Of a stretch of DNA of 64,000 nucleotides, positions 10,218 through 44,726 are shown piece after piece (within the stretch, counting starts at the first letter, position 1; every line of letters starts with the position of its first letter). This DNA comes from Streptomonospora salina (lineage in GTDB: Bacteria; Actinomycetota; Actinomycetes; Streptosporangiales; Streptosporangiaceae). Where the stretch lies: NCBI RefSeq assembly GCF_014204715.1, contig NZ_JACHLY010000001.1:124001-188000 (forward strand). Direction: 5' to 3'. The notes under the pieces were generated by a model. It saw only the letters and a list, made by a program, of their open reading frames with translations, was not told where the DNA came from and searched no databases. The position numbers and the translations under genes are program-made.

Positions 10218-10266
10218 TTGACATCGAACGGCGGGCTGCCTAGATTGATCTGGCAAGCGCTTTCCA
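10218..10266 (+). promoter_or_regulatory. Strong sigma-70-type promoter with LacI-family operator
   Basis: A perfect -35 TTGACA (10218-10223), a 17-bp spacer and a -10 TAGATT (10241-10246) place the start of transcription near 10253. That falls inside the near-perfect palindrome TGGCAAGCGCTTTCCA (10251-10266). The identical 16-mer recurs at 13208 and variants lie at 13691 and 18249, all around the LacI regulator gene. The geometry (operator at +1) is that of repression. Confidence 0.75.
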
Positions 10267-12037: not shown

Positions 12038-12964
12038 ATGGCGGCAGGAGATGCGGACGGCGGCCGGGCCGGGAGCGGACACGGCGAAGGCGCAGCGGTG
12101 CTGCGGTGCCGGGGATCGGTGGTCGCCGAGTGGAACAGCGGCGCCGGCGTCGATCCGCAGCTGTCGCCCCGCCCCTACCTCCACCCGGTGCGCACCCCGG
12201 CGGGCACCACCGTCACCGAGGTCCGTCCCGACGACCACCTGCACCACCTGGGCGTCGGCGTGACCGTGCCCGACGTCAACGGCAGCAGCTTCTGGGGCGG
12301 CACCACCTTCGTCCGCGACCGCGGTCCGGTGCTGCTGGACAACCACGGGCGCCAGGAGCACCGCGGCTGGGACGCGGCCGCCGACGACCGGTCGGTCGAG
12401 CGGATCGCCTGGGTCGGGCGCGACGGTACCGAACTGCTCGGCGAGGTCCGCGAGACCGCCGCATGGGAGGTGGACGCGCACACGTGGGCGCTGGATCTGC
12501 ACACGCGGCTGGTCGCCGGCGAGCGCGACCTGGAGGTCAACAGCCCGGCGACCAAGGGCCGCCCCGGGGCCGGCTACGGCGGGTTCTTCTGGCGCGCTCC
12601 GCGCCACGCCCGTCCGCCGCGGGTACTCGGTCCCGGTGCCGAGGGCGAGGACGCGCTGCACGGCTCGCGCGCCCCTTGGCTGGCGCTGCAGGGCACCTCC
12701 GACTCCGAGCAGCGGTGGAGCCTGGTGTTCGCCGCAGCGGGCCCGGTGGCGGACCCGTGGTTCGTGCGCGCCGGTGAGTACCCGGGCGTGGGCGGCTCGC
12801 TGGCCTGGCGCGATCCGCTGCACGTGGCGGCGCGCTCGGCGGTGGAGCGCCGCGTCCTCACCCTGGTCGCCGACGGCCATCCCTCCCCCGATCGCCTGGC
12901 CGGTCTGGTCGCGACCGCCCGCGACCGCCTGGGCGCGCCCGCTCCGGAGCGCTCCGCGGCGTGA
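12038..12964 (+). CDS. DUF6807 (PmoA-like) family protein
   Basis: 308 residues, recognised by the family pattern RPYLHPVRTPAGTTVTEV followed by RPDDHLHHLGVGV, and by NGSSFWGG. These proteins are annotated as 'PmoA family' although they are not methane monooxygenase subunits. They occur in sugar-catabolic operons with Gfo/Idh/MocA enzymes and LacI regulators, and their activity is not established. No signal peptide is evident, so it is probably cytoplasmic. It is co-transcribed with the upstream oxidoreductase under the same LacI operator. Confidence 0.8.
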   Translation: MAAGDADGGRAGSGHGEGAAVLRCRGSVVAEWNSGAGVDPQLSPRPYLHPVRTPAGTTVTEVRPDDHLHHLGVGVTVPDVNGSSFWGGTTFVRDRGPVLLDNHGRQEHRGWDAAADDRSVERIAWVGRDGTELLGEVRETAAWEVDAHTWALDLHTRLVAGERDLEVNSPATKGRPGAGYGGFFWRAPRHARPPRVLGPGAEGEDALHGSRAPWLALQGTSDSEQRWSLVFAAAGPVADPWFVRAGEYPGVGGSLAWRDPLHVAARSAVERRVLTLVADGHPSPDRLAGLVATARDRLGAPAPERSAA

Positions 12965-13010
12965 CGCCCGCGGGCCGGTTCCCCGCCTCGGCGCACCCGG
13001 GCGGGTCGGG

Positions 13011-13026
13011 CGGCGCACGTGCGCCG
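13011..13026. terminator. Perfect 16-bp palindrome after the DUF6807 gene
   Basis: CGGCGCACGTGCGCCG can fold into a 6-bp stem with a 4-base loop 46 bases beyond the DUF6807 stop. It is either a terminator or, read on the minus strand, part of the sequence following the orphan omega-RNA-like scaffold. Confidence 0.4.
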
Positions 13027-13032
13027 AGCGGG

Positions 13033-13147
13033 TCGACGTCCGCTCCCCGGCCGCGAAGCCGGGGATTCCTACGGCGGTCGGGTGACCGCTTCGGCGGTTT
13101 CCCGCTTCGTCGCGCCGCAGGCACCCGGACCTGAGGCCGTCCGGGTG
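13033..13147 (-). ncRNA. Orphan omega-RNA-like segment (TnpB guide RNA scaffold relic)
   Basis: Positions 13033-13112 align without gaps to 42980-43059, the 3' end of the IS605-type tnpB, with 67 of 80 identities. Both carry GTAGGAATCCCCGGCT, both fold a GC hairpin directly after it, and both have a second hairpin just upstream (here CACCCGGAC paired with GTCCGGGTG, 13122-13147). In IS200/IS605 elements this region is the right end and the TnpB guide-RNA scaffold, whose 3' end adjoins flanking DNA used as the guide. No tnpB or tnpA lies here. It is a solo right end or an orphan guide RNA. Expression is unknown. Confidence 0.6.
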
Positions 13148-13184
13148 CGGCGGGGTCCACTGGCGGCGCCCGCCGTCTGCTGCT

Positions 13185-13223
13185 CTCCTACGACGCGCGA
13201 AACTCAATGGCAAGCGCTTTCCA
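13185..13223. promoter_or_regulatory. LacI operator with possible leftward promoter
   Basis: TGGCAAGCGCTTTCCA at 13208-13223 is identical to the operator at 10251. On the minus strand its left half supplies TTGCCA (13213-13208), 17 bp from TAGGAG (13190-13185), a weak promoter pointing at the orphan omega-RNA-like segment. On the plus strand I see no good -35/-10 pair, and no gene follows for about 650 bases. Confidence 0.5.
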
Positions 13224-13690
13224 GTGGAGGAGGCGCACCCGGAAGCGCACGCGGCCGCGCGGGTCCGCACCGCACGCGCCCGACGACGCGAACAGGACGG
13301 CCATGCGCATCCCCGCCACCGGTGGCACGGGCCGAATCGGCCGCCGCGCGGGCGCGGCACCGACGGCCCGCTGCCATGACGCCCCTCGGCCGACCCGCCT
13401 CCCGCGGCTTCGGACGGCGGTGCCGGCTCCCCTACGGCAGTCCTGCCCGACGAGGCCGCGCGCGAGGATCCGTTCGCCCCGCTGCGCCCCGATCCCGCCC
13501 GCAGGGGCGGCGTCGACCACGCGCCCCCGTGGACGCCCTTGCGCCGGAACCGTCGGCCGAACCGGCGCCCCGCCTCCTCGGGCACCGCCGAAGCCGCGGC
13601 CGGTCCCGCCGGTCGGCATGGGCGTTCAGCCCCGCACCCGCCGCCGACCGGCTAGGCTGGCGCCCGCAGCGGATCCGGCGCGACGAACCA
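13224..13690 (+). pseudogene. Gene-less stretch with a possible relic of a Rossmann enzyme
   Basis: No frame is convincing over this stretch. An ATG at 13303 (GGACGG upstream) begins MRIPATGGTGRIGRR, which resembles the N-terminus of NAD(P)-dependent epimerases/SDR enzymes (the usual form is M-R-I-L-V-T-G-G-x-G-x-I-G). The frame then becomes Arg/Pro-rich and loses any family resemblance. With an operator directly upstream, this may be an eroded sugar-epimerase gene. The resemblance is short and could be chance. Confidence 0.25.
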
Positions 13691-13707
13691 CTGGAAGCGG
13701 TTTCCAG
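13691..13707. promoter_or_regulatory. LacI-family operator variant
   Basis: CTGGAAGCGGTTTCCAG is a near-perfect palindrome of the same TGGAA-N-CG-N-TTCCA type as the other operators of this region, about 170 bp upstream of the lacI-type gene. Confidence 0.55.
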
Positions 13708-13826
13708 CGGGGGCCAGGGCACGGTCGGCGCGGCCGCCCCGCCCGCCCGGCGCACTCTCCTCAGCGTGTCGGGGTGCACCGCGCCGCGCCGCGGATGCGG
13801 CTGGTAACGGGGGTTGCGCGCACGCG

Positions 13827-13861
13827 TAGGATCGGACTGCGGAAAAAGTTTTCCCGCAGTC
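13827..13861 (+). promoter_or_regulatory. Promoter and inverted repeat upstream of the LacI regulator
   Basis: TAGGAT (13827-13832) is a plausible -10. Just downstream, GACTGCGG (13835-13842) and CCGCAGTC (13854-13861) form a perfect 8-bp inverted repeat around an A/T-rich centre (GGAAAAAGTTTTCC). This differs from the AAGCGCTT operators and sits at the expected start site. It may be an autoregulatory site or the target of another regulator. Confidence 0.45.
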
Positions 13862-13879
13862 GGGGCGAAAGGTGAAGCC

Positions 13880-14914
13880 GTGGGCAGCGGATACGTGACA
13901 TTGGATCAGGTCGCCCGGCACGCCGGCGTCTCCCTGGCCACCGCCTCGCGCGTCCTCAACGGCAGCACCCGCCAGGTAGGGCGCACCCTGCACGAGCGCG
14001 TCACGGCCAGCGCCCGCGAGCTGGGCTACCTCGCCAACGCCTCGGCCCAGACCCTGGCCCGCAACACCAGCTCACTGGTCGGACTCATCGTCCACGACAT
14101 CGCCGACCCCTATTTCTCCAGCATCGCCTCCGGTGTCACCCGCACGGCCGAGGACGAAGGACTGGTCGTCGTGCTGGGCACCACCGGCCGCACCCCGCAG
14201 CGCGAACTGGAACTGCTCGCCACGCTGCGCTCGCACCGCGCCCGCGCGGTCGTGCTGGCGGGCAGCCGCACCATCGAAGAGGAGACCACCCGGCGGCTGG
14301 CCGACGAGATCGCCGCCCTCGGGGCCCGCGGGGGCCGCATCGCCTGCGTCTCCCAGGAGGGCCTGCCCGCCGACACCGTGGTGCCCAGCAACCGCGACGG
14401 CGCCGCCGAACTCGCCCGGCACCTGATCGGGCTGGGGCACCGCCGCTTCGCACTCCTGGCCGGACCCAACAACCTGCGCACCGCCCGCGACCGGCTCGAC
14501 GGCTTCCACGCGGCGCTGTCGGCGGCAGGCATCGAACCGGACCCGCGCAACGTCGTGCACGGCGCCTTCACCCGCGACGGCGGCTACGAATCCACCCGCC
14601 GCCTGCTGTCCGCCGATACCGACGCCACCTGCCTGTTCGCCGTCAACGACGTCATGGCCACCGGCGCCGTCGCGGCGCTGCGCGACGGAGGGCTGGAGGT
14701 TCCCCGGGACATGTCGGTGGCCGGCTTCGACGACATCCCCACCCTGCGCGACCTCACCCCCGGCCTGACGACGGTGCGCCTGCCGCTGGAATGGATGGGC
14801 GAAGAGGCCGCCCGCCTGGCCCTGGACGACGACGAGAACACCGAGCCGCGCACGGTGCCGGTCTCGGGCGAGGTCGTCGTGCGCGAGAGCACGGCCCCGC
14901 CCGCCCGCTCCTGA
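13880..14914 (+). CDS. LacI-family transcriptional regulator
   Basis: 344 residues from GTG 13880 (AAAGGTG upstream). The HTH is complete (VTLDQVARHAGVSLATASRVLNG, residues about 6-28), with a hinge helix region and a periplasmic-binding-protein-like sugar-binding domain (VGLIVHDIADPYFSSIASGV onward; C-terminal AGFDDIPTLRDLTPGLTTV). It is surrounded by palindromes containing AAGCGCTT, the kind of operator LacI proteins use, so it is the likely local repressor of both flanking sugar-catabolic units. The inducer is unknown. Confidence 0.9.
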   Translation: MGSGYVTLDQVARHAGVSLATASRVLNGSTRQVGRTLHERVTASARELGYLANASAQTLARNTSSLVGLIVHDIADPYFSSIASGVTRTAEDEGLVVVLGTTGRTPQRELELLATLRSHRARAVVLAGSRTIEEETTRRLADEIAALGARGGRIACVSQEGLPADTVVPSNRDGAAELARHLIGLGHRRFALLAGPNNLRTARDRLDGFHAALSAAGIEPDPRNVVHGAFTRDGGYESTRRLLSADTDATCLFAVNDVMATGAVAALRDGGLEVPRDMSVAGFDDIPTLRDLTPGLTTVRLPLEWMGEEAARLALDDDENTEPRTVPVSGEVVVRESTAPPARS

Positions 14915-42963: not shown

Positions 42964-43082
42964 CCGCACCCGGATCGTCTTGACTTCCGCTCCCCGGGCT
43001 AAGAGCCGGGGATTCCTACGGCGGCCGGTCGGCCGCTTCGGCGGGTTCCCGCTTCATCGCGCTGCGCCCGAACGGGTTCGGG
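42964..43082 (-). ncRNA. Omega-RNA (reRNA) of the TnpB element with guide
   Basis: On the minus strand the 3' end of tnpB runs through a hairpin (43082-43067, CCCGAA/TTCGGG) and the scaffold 43059-42980, which ends GCGGAAGTCAA. IS200/IS605 guide RNAs end their scaffold in such a TCAA, after which flanking DNA is the guide; here it would begin GACGATCCGGGTGCGG (42979-42964). The tnpB stop codon lies inside the scaffold, as in known elements. Transcription and processing are inferred. Confidence 0.65.
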
Positions 43083-44219
43083 TCTTACCTGCGCTCCACG
43101 GGCTGATGCCGCCAGTCCGGCGGCCGTGGCGACGTTGACCGCCGCGTTGACGTCCCGGTCGAGGACGGCCCCGCAGTCGCCGCACGTCCACACACGTACA
43201 TGCAAAGGCTTGGGCCCGTCCTTGACGCCGCACACCGAACACACCCGGGACGTGGGTTCGAACCGCCCGATCCTGACCAGCCTCCGGCCGTACCGCGCGG
43301 CCTTGTACTCCAGCATGCGCACGAACGCCGACCACCCCGCGTCATGCACCGACTTAGCCAGCCTGGTGCGGGCGAGCCCGTTCACCGCCAGGGTCTCCAC
43401 GGCCACCGCTTGGTTCTCGCGGATCAGCCGGGTGGAGAGCCGGTGGTGGAAATCGCGCCGTGCGTCGGCGACCCGGGCGTGAGCGCGGGCGACCTTCACC
43501 CTGGCCTTGTCCCGGTTGGCCGACCCCTTCTGTGTGCGGGACAGGCGGCGCTGTTCCCGCTTGAGCTTCTTCTCGGCCCGGCGCAGGAACCGGGGCGAGT
43601 CGACCTTCGTGCCGTCCGACAGCACCGCGAAGTGCCCCAACCCGAGGTCGATGCCGACCTCGCCGGTGGTCTCGGGCAGCGTCTCGTCCCGGCCGGTCTC
43701 GACGACGAAGCTCGCGAAGTACCGTCCGGCGGCGTCCTTGACCACGGTGACCGACGACGGCACCGACGGTAGCGCGCGGGACCACGTCACGCGCACGTTC
43801 CCGATCTTGGGTAGCGACAGGTCGCCGCCGGTCGTGATCCTCCAGCGGGCGTTGGCAGTGAACCGGACGGTCTGACGCCGGTCTTTGCGGGACTTGAACC
43901 GGGGTGCGCCCATGCGCGGGCGCTTGCCCGTGAGGCCGTCGAAGAAGGTGCGGTAGGCGGCGTCCAGATCCCTCAGCGCCTGCTGCAGGACCACGGCGGA
44001 CACGTCGCCCAACCATGCGCGCTCGGGGGTCGCCTTCGCTCGGGTGATCAGCTTCTTGGACAGGTCCCCGGTCGTCGGGAACGCGTCGCCGCCGGTGCGG
44101 GCGGTCTCCCGCGCCCGCAGCGCGTCGTTGTAGACCACGCGGGCGCAGCCGAACGCCTGCGCCAACGCTTGGCGCTGGGGGCCGTTGGGGTACAGGCGGA
44201 ACCGGTACCGGAGCTGCAT
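42999..44219 (-). CDS. tnpB: TnpB RNA-guided nuclease (IS605 OrfB family)
   Basis: 406 residues from ATG 44219. The RuvC triad is complete: Asp191 in GIDLGLGHFAV, Glu275 in AVAVETLAVNGL and Asp356 in DRDVNAAVN. The zinc finger cysteines are 327, 330, 346 and 349 (CSVCG and CGDCG). N-terminal REC/WED segments (LRYRFRLYPNGPQRQALAQAFGCARVVYND) are normal. The triad spacing is nearly that of ISDra2 TnpB (191, 278, 361, from memory). TnpB cuts DNA next to a short TAM guided by the RNA from the element's right end. No disruption is seen. Confidence 0.93.
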   Translation of the reverse strand: MQLRYRFRLYPNGPQRQALAQAFGCARVVYNDALRARETARTGGDAFPTTGDLSKKLITRAKATPERAWLGDVSAVVLQQALRDLDAAYRTFFDGLTGKRPRMGAPRFKSRKDRRQTVRFTANARWRITTGGDLSLPKIGNVRVTWSRALPSVPSSVTVVKDAAGRYFASFVVETGRDETLPETTGEVGIDLGLGHFAVLSDGTKVDSPRFLRRAEKKLKREQRRLSRTQKGSANRDKARVKVARAHARVADARRDFHHRLSTRLIRENQAVAVETLAVNGLARTRLAKSVHDAGWSAFVRMLEYKAARYGRRLVRIGRFEPTSRVCSVCGVKDGPKPLHVRVWTCGDCGAVLDRDVNAAVNVATAAGLAASARGAQVRPEPVRAQRDEAGTRRSGRPAAVGIPGS

Positions 44220-44655
44220 GCGAACAAACGTACTACAGGGGGGCACGGGCCCACACGAGAACGCCGGAACCGGCAGACACCGCGTTTCCGTTCTGCATGC
44301 GCACTCGGTTTTCGTTACGAAGTACCGGCATGCGGTGTTCTCCGACGCCCACCTTCACCGCATGGAGGAGGTCATGCGGTCGGTGTGCACCGACGTCGCG
44401 GCCGATCCGGTGGAGTCCGACGGCGCGGGCGAGCACGTCCACCCGCCGGTGCACCTCCCGCCCGACACCGCGGCCTCCACACCGGTCGACAGCCGCACGG
44501 GCGTGTCCCCGCGCCGGTCGCGCCCGGAATTCTGCGAGCGTGTCCGCCACTGCCAGCGCGGGCGAGCGGCCCCGGTCGGGCTCCTACTCCGCCGGCCCGG
44601 CCGGCGACACCCCGTCGACCGCGGTACGGCGGAGCACTGCCGACGACCCCGGTAG
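44218..44655 (+). pseudogene. tnpA: Decayed Y1 (HUH) transposase tnpA
   Basis: The plus frame from ATG 44218 reads GRHRVSVLHAHSVFVTKYRH, then AVFSDAHLHRMEEVMRSVC and HVHPPVHLPP, which follow the IS200 TnpA order (HUH motif kept as HVH). After about 44570 the family resemblance moves to another frame (SGSYSAGPAGDTP), so there is a frameshift. The segment that normally carries the catalytic tyrosine (LRQYIE) reads VRRSTAD. It is therefore inactive. Its ATG overlaps the tnpB start on the opposite strand. Confidence 0.75.
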
Positions 44656-44726
44656 CGTTCTCAACGGCCGCGGGTCCGGGCAGGCCGACGGGCCCGACAT
44701 CGCATCCTCGGGGGGGGGATCGGGAC

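Follow-up and report, generated by a model that had tools for sequence, protein, structure and literature searches.

A truncated IS200/IS605-type right end in Streptomonospora salina: very probably the relic of an inserted element

Introduction

A piece of TnpB right end that stands apart from any tnpB gene may be a guide-RNA gene or the stump of a transposon, and which of the two it is becomes a question at positions 13033-13148 of the DNA analysed here (C1:124001-188000 of the Streptomonospora salina genome; this whole stretch of 64 kb is called the window). The initial annotation offered both readings: a solo right end, or an orphan guide-RNA gene that the intact TnpB encoded at 43-44 kb could use in trans. 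Stand-alone HEARO/omega-RNAs are reported for IscB, and TldR proteins descended from TnpB. A guide-RNA gene and a transposon stump can be told apart by the 5' pseudoknot strand and by the empty site. With one intact TnpB of this family, no complete Y1 transposase found and a few complete right ends that lack a working tnpB, this is a fair genome in which to ask about trans guiding, though with copies other than the present one.

Methods

Right ends were counted by BLAST of the 115-base segment against the whole own genome (5.6 Mb, three contigs), covering the best 40 of 109 candidates; positions outside the window are given as contig and coordinate. The tnpB codons retained by each copy were determined by tblastn with four TnpB queries at the fetched loci of the 12 BLAST copies. 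A covariance model, R1, was trained on 13 right ends from the own genome and its relatives, the 13033 segment being left out.

Results and discussion

The segment and the intact copy

The gap-free match between 13033-13112 and the tnpB right end at 42980-43059 that had drawn attention to the locus was reproduced (67 of 80 identities), and in the own-genome BLAST the window tnpB end is found with E = 2.8e-20, so that the similarity is not due to chance. The gap-free homologous block shared with the window tnpB copy covers 13035-13118; the closest copy among the matches listed is C1:3378610-3378689, 91% identical over query bases 7-86. It also holds, as first described, that the stop codon in the hairpin loop is lost (TCTTAG in the window tnpB copy, TTCGCG here) and that neither tnpB nor tnpA lies nearby: a whole-TnpB query finds 43002-44219 as its sole match within C1:124001-188000, the window's sole Y1 transposase match is the remnant listed in Table 1, and the tnpB remainder at the site amounts to 19 codons by tblastn. 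The terminus reads GTCGA, for GTCAA in other right ends. An Rfam scan of the window gave 0 matches at gathering scores.

Table 1. Positions of features within the window and of a repeat found elsewhere in the genome
Feature	Position	Strand	Remarks	Basis
DUF6807 protein gene	12038-12964	+	Upstream neighbour; stop codon at 12964	Domain search
Host DNA where a guide would sit	13015-13032	-		Homologous to uninterrupted G001 sequence
Truncated right end, IS200/IS605-type (TnpB) element	13033-13118	-	Last ~86 nt of scaffold	BLAST, covariance model, copy comparison
Perfect 10-bp hairpin	13121-13148		Arms 13121-13130 and 13139-13148	Lies where other copies have the first scaffold hairpin
Presumed LacI-type operator palindrome	13208-13223		TGGCAAGCGCTTTCCA	Motif
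NAD-dependent epimerase pseudogene	13297-13714	+	Three pieces in three frames; ~480 bp missing	Comparison with four relatives
LacI-family regulator gene	13880-14914	+		Domain search
Right-end scaffold of window tnpB, complete, 117 nt	42980-43096	-	Reference copy	Copy comparison
Intact tnpB	42999-44219	-	406 aa; related to ISDra2 TnpB	Domains and alignment
Truncated Y1 transposase (tnpA) remnant	44284-44544	+	Profile positions 2-88 of 121	Profile match
Conserved left end	44626-44657	-	CGCTACCGGGGTCGTCGGCAGT...	Common to window copy, four other own-genome copies and one G002 copy
GCGAATATGCGGAGCTTGCGGAGCTCGCACAGTAGGGG repeat, six loci	C1:718998-719049, C1:1363303-1363358, C2:314664-314796, C1:4903129-4903220, C1:240242-240293, C1:90042-90069		~40 bp, palindromic	

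The TnpB at 43-44 kb carries the Pfam domains OrfB_IS605, Cas12f1-like_TNB and HTH_OrfB_IS605, and its residues 6-380 align with ISDra2 TnpB (8bf8; E 2e-70). In this alignment the Asp/Glu/Asp of the RuvC site and the CxxC pairs are in place, at positions which we take, apart from D191, to be those of ISDra2 TnpB. The complete scaffold of this family is about 117 nt long and runs from GAGCGCAG to GTCAA. The CTAC within the conserved left-end block may be the target motif; empty sites would be needed to divide the block into target and element, and no conservation is seen in the bases that precede it. A complete Y1 transposase was not found in the genome, which has just two partial Y1_Tnp matches (profile positions 2-88 and 75-121 of 121).

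Next to the truncated end lies the perfect hairpin, which may be, at least in part, a diverged form of the first scaffold hairpin, since the copies at C1:279640 and C2:314557 align with the segment, with gaps and at 80-81% overall, up to 13139. Alternatively, it could be debris of a rearrangement of the host flank, which an inverted repeat with that flank (12986-13004 and 13137-13155, 84%) that includes one hairpin arm would fit.

A right end without its 5' scaffold part

On the minus strand, R1 scores 70.7 bits over 13033-13126, but with five unaligned bases in place of its positions 7-34. The skipped positions comprise the 5' pseudoknot strand (AGGTAAGACC) and the first hairpin, and positions 1-6 fall on one arm of the 13121-13148 hairpin with four of six letters alike. 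Within the skipped part, GAC (positions 13-15) is able to pair with the terminal GUC, and this pairing corresponds in place to the ISDra2 pseudoknot (-105 to -103 with -5 to -3; PMC10097598). For the GAC strand no aligned counterpart was found in the segment, even when gapped BLAST was extended over the hairpin. In what remains of the scaffold, the stems and the GUC of the 3' strand are intact, and the 3' stem-loop and the terminal scaffold adjoining host DNA are present. Of the earlier description as right end plus guide-RNA scaffold, the right end therefore stands, and the scaffold is just partial, a complete one having about 117 nt.

The argument rests on the missing model positions and not on the score. 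The six own-genome copies that trained R1 reach 116-134 bits, values favoured by construction, and L012, at 130.6 bits, is letter-identical to the trained window copy over R1. Untrained copies score 91.3 (L015), 81.5 (L191), 41.8 (L016), 41.1 (L018) and 40.9 bits (L017), a range that includes the value of the segment.

Comparison with ISDra2 indicates what the loss may mean. The ISDra2-type IS200/IS605 right end with its TnpB reRNA/omega-RNA (PMC8612924, PMC10097598) resembles the segment in the 3' stem-loop scaffold, the four-base loop, the terminal GUC and host DNA immediately 3', and resembles the window copy in that the tnpB ORF overlaps the scaffold and a related TnpB is present in the genome. 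Unlike that system, the segment lacks the 5' scaffold quarter (pseudoknot strand and first hairpin) and tnpB, and its terminus and loop letters are altered. The bound ISDra2 scaffold, -116 to -1, includes the pseudoknot (PMC10097598), and in a mutational scan (PMC11844463, preprint) truncations and deletions in the pseudoknot, which inactivate, are depleted. The 5' pseudoknot part is probably needed in the window tnpB family too, because it is conserved among the 13 right ends, positions 7-34 being nearly invariant at their own 5' side in the 13-row alignment.

The locus in related genomes

The segment lies between the DUF6807 stop codon (12964) and the palindrome at 13208-13223, on the strand opposite to the DUF6807, epimerase and LacI genes, all of which are on the plus strand. 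The palindrome TGGCAAGCGCTTTCCA, which we take to be a LacI-type operator, occurs in identical form at 10251-10266 and 13208-13223, about 3 kb apart; the window's epimerase pseudogene still has a recognisable operator. The order DUF6807 - NAD-dependent epimerase - LacI was found in G001, G003, G004 and G005. Against the intact epimerase of G005 as query, G001, G003 and G004 match at least 293 of 329 residues in one frame, and G002 has a 31-residue remnant in the stretch searched. The window LacI protein shares 91% identity with its S. mangrovi counterpart and 94% with the one in the genus member G005; the most similar DUF6807 gene is that of G001 (83%).

Host homology to G001 ends at 13032, one base before the last position of R1, i.e. 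the element terminus, at which the segment begins as a solo right end should. It resumes at 13148 (local alignment) or 13162 (BLAST). Between these borders lie about 190-210 nt of different sequence in G001, and the right end and the hairpin in the window. This G001 segment (1590-1800) has no counterpart at the locus in the other relatives fetched, so that a deletion in the window and an insertion in G001 fit alike.

The conservation at the same locus that the initial annotation had proposed to look for is not seen: an R1 search run without filters gave no match in the interval from DUF6807 to LacI in any of the five genus relatives (G001-G005). The best of eight weak R1 matches in the fetched stretches of these relatives has 13.5 bits and lies outside that interval. 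Among the matches listed from a genus-wide covariance-model search, right ends occur in G001, G002 and G005 only at other loci, and there are none in G003 and G004. A likeness between 13044-13057 and CCGCTCCCCCGCCG in G005 was considered as a shared relic and rejected, S. mangrovi having the same letters directly before a TTGACC box; it is taken as host sequence that would resemble the scaffold by chance.

Nor was a left end found. The left-end alignment over 13119-13400 scores 17; 500 mononucleotide shuffles average 17.6, with 309 of them scoring at least as high, and four real left-end regions reach 62-121. Neither GTAGCG nor GGTAGC occurs on the plus strand of 13119-14300.

Stems and folding

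All ten differences from the closest copy fall outside the stems of the segment (40 stem positions of 86), as do all five changes private to it with respect to seven other copies; in these seven, eight of 13 private changes lie inside stems. The chance of five misses of five is 0.03 from the pattern of the other copies and 0.04 under random placement. The decay thus seems not to have been entirely random, but the counts are very small and the changes may predate insertion. Of the signs of a dead relic named at the outset, absence from close relatives is present and random decay is not clearly so.

The 115-nt segment folds at -67.8 kcal/mol, better than 200 of 200 dinucleotide shuffles (z -3.2); among 3196 windows of equal length in the GC-rich 64 kb, 191 reach the same stability or exceed it. 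For the genuine scaffold at 42980-43096 z is -0.4, and for the 13121-13148 hairpin alone -3.8. The stem-avoiding changes and the stable fold speak against a dead relic and leave room for a structural role, for example as a terminator; they do not restore the missing pseudoknot strand.

Right ends elsewhere in the genome

At least 12 right-end copies, the 13033 segment included, were found in the own genome by BLAST. Five of the 12 have longer tnpB parts: the window copy (406), C1:3378610 (349 + 64, frameshifted), C1:13452 (187 residues), C1:677123 (155) and C1:4812006 (95). Six, the segment among them, retain at most 75 tnpB codons with no longer piece of the same copy nearby: the segment itself (19), C1:279640 (31), C1:240156 (31 + 9), C2:314557 (60 at 53% identity, + 15), C2:376241 (0) and C1:1931862 (0). 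The twelfth, C1:1363196 (31 codons), is the tail of a copy at C1:1367093-1368085, about 3.8 kb away. The proposed search for other solo copies thus succeeded, and the segment proved not to be unique. In the covariance-model search at least 24 own-genome matches have E <= 1 among the best 150 of 14236 candidates, some of which belong to further TnpB families. Right ends that lack a working tnpB are a common feature of the Streptomonospora salina genome, and the copies form a series from one intact tnpB to end-only pieces.

A comparable IS605 decay series of many graded copies, few working genes and end-only pieces is described for Halanaerobium hydrogeniformans (PMC7290912), so that a truncated right end is ordinary for this genome and of a kind already known. 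The ends-only piece in that report keeps 28 nt of the left end (PMC7290912); at the 13033 segment no left end was detected.

Interpretation

We regard the segment as very probably a dead relic that comprises the terminal ~86 bp of an IS200/IS605-type right end of the same family as the 43-44 kb element, because its terminus coincides to one base with the end of G001 host homology, its inner border cuts off the 5' scaffold part, no left end, no tnpA and just 19 tnpB codons were detected, none of the five relatives has a right end at the locus, and the adjoining epimerase gene is also broken. An IS605-type element would have inserted here in minus-strand orientation, after which a deletion or rearrangement would have removed everything from inside the scaffold outwards. 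Adjacent host DNA may have gone too, since the window lacks the ~190-210 nt of G001 noted above, although a deletion of host DNA is not proven; the hairpin would have been left at the junction. Most likely the segment does nothing as a guide RNA, and its hairpins at most end or stabilise transcripts of the DUF6807 gene.

That last role, a relic co-opted as a terminator or mRNA-stabilising 3' structure, is improbable, if the least so of the alternatives. Three stable plus-strand hairpins begin about 80 nt after the DUF6807 stop codon, and the private changes leave their stems unbroken. However, no T-run terminator lies at the segment, the only one in 12800-14000 being a minus-strand terminator at 13852-13870; the fold of the plus strand (z -1.9) is matched by four of 200 shuffles and by 435 of 3196 windows; and the right end is absent here from five relatives. 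A non-autonomous mini-element (MITE or PATE-like, with left-end hairpin and right end) moved in trans by a transposase is hardly to be expected. One hairpin plus a right end is indeed what the window has and G001 lacks, and an IS605 ends-only sequence is published (PMC7290912). Yet left-end similarity is no better than in shuffles and both short motifs are missing, the right terminus is altered (GTCGA), only partial Y1 transposases exist in the genome, and none of the 11 other copies listed matches all 115 bases, the longest covering bases 3-107 with gaps at 81%.

The case for an orphan guide RNA that serves the TnpB at 43-44 kb in trans and takes its guide from the adjoining host DNA consists of the intact protein with its aligned catalytic residues and, in the segment, the unbroken retained stems, the kept GUC and the private changes that avoid stems. 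We nevertheless judge this reading very unlikely, and this claim of the initial annotation is not upheld: neither AGGTAAGACC nor the first hairpin (positions 7-34) has a counterpart, in ISDra2 the pseudoknot belongs to the bound scaffold (PMC10097598) and truncations in it inactivate (PMC11844463), and the locus has no right end in five of five relatives. The would-be guide of 18 nt has its own locus as only exact match in the genome. None of three further one-mismatch places, for which a rough fifth-order Markov model from the window expects 0.3 with at most one mismatch, has CTAC, the putative target motif, directly upstream (CTAG, TCAA and CTCG instead). With up to three mismatches there are 80 places (34 forward, 46 reverse), against 64 (28 + 36) for the reversed pattern. 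A sigma-70 consensus scan of 12800-14000 gave 0 promoters, which says little, as shuffles likewise have a mean of 0.0. In a full-text literature search, with subscription journals mostly outside it, no solo TnpB right end guiding in trans was recognised, though this does not prove that none exists. The precedent for domestication of a guide RNA of TnpB origin would be TldR, a group of RNA-guided transcription factors (PMC13418256); unlike there, no sign of a maintained guide is seen, and the only intact TnpB of the family has its catalytic residues. A tempting but weak guide-RNA candidate is thereby removed.

The idea may be widened to a scattered set of guide RNAs, right ends without working tnpB being kept for use by TnpB in trans, with the 13-kb copy shortened and a new hairpin in place of its lost 5' part; this too has very little probability. 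The strongest members would be C1:279625-279741 (122 bits) and C2:314555-314671 (116 bits), both in the training set of the model, which are complete 117-position scaffolds without working tnpB and better candidates than the 13033 segment. A third complete scaffold, C1:1363194-1363310, lowers the odds of such a set, being the cut-off tail of a longer copy.

A split copy and a palindromic repeat

This third scaffold had been a candidate solo end and was rejected as such. C1:1368643-1367069 corresponds to window 44657-43101, and C1:1363311-1363193 to window 43097-42979, so that C1:1363193-1368643 is one element of the same family split at the tnpB/scaffold border by about 3.8 kb of other DNA. 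Two of four ORFs tested in part of this gap match families (Rce1-like and DUF3887), and none of the four is a transposase.

A 40-bp palindromic repeat stands on the scaffold side of the split. At each of the six loci found (nine matches; Table 1) the repeat (GCGAATATGCGGAGCTTGCGGAGCTCGCACAGTAGGGG) immediately adjoins a right-end scaffold on its 5' side, with a slight bias toward scaffold-adjoining places because the last bases of the query are scaffold letters. The scaffolds belong to more than one TnpB family, the weakest (32 bits) being at C1:90066. Of 200 genomes of the family, 12 contain related repeats, the own genome being one of them, and just one of nine loci fetched from family genomes (L255) has a right end beside the repeat. 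The repeat would be either a REP-like intergenic repeat that entered right ends or a module exchanged between them.
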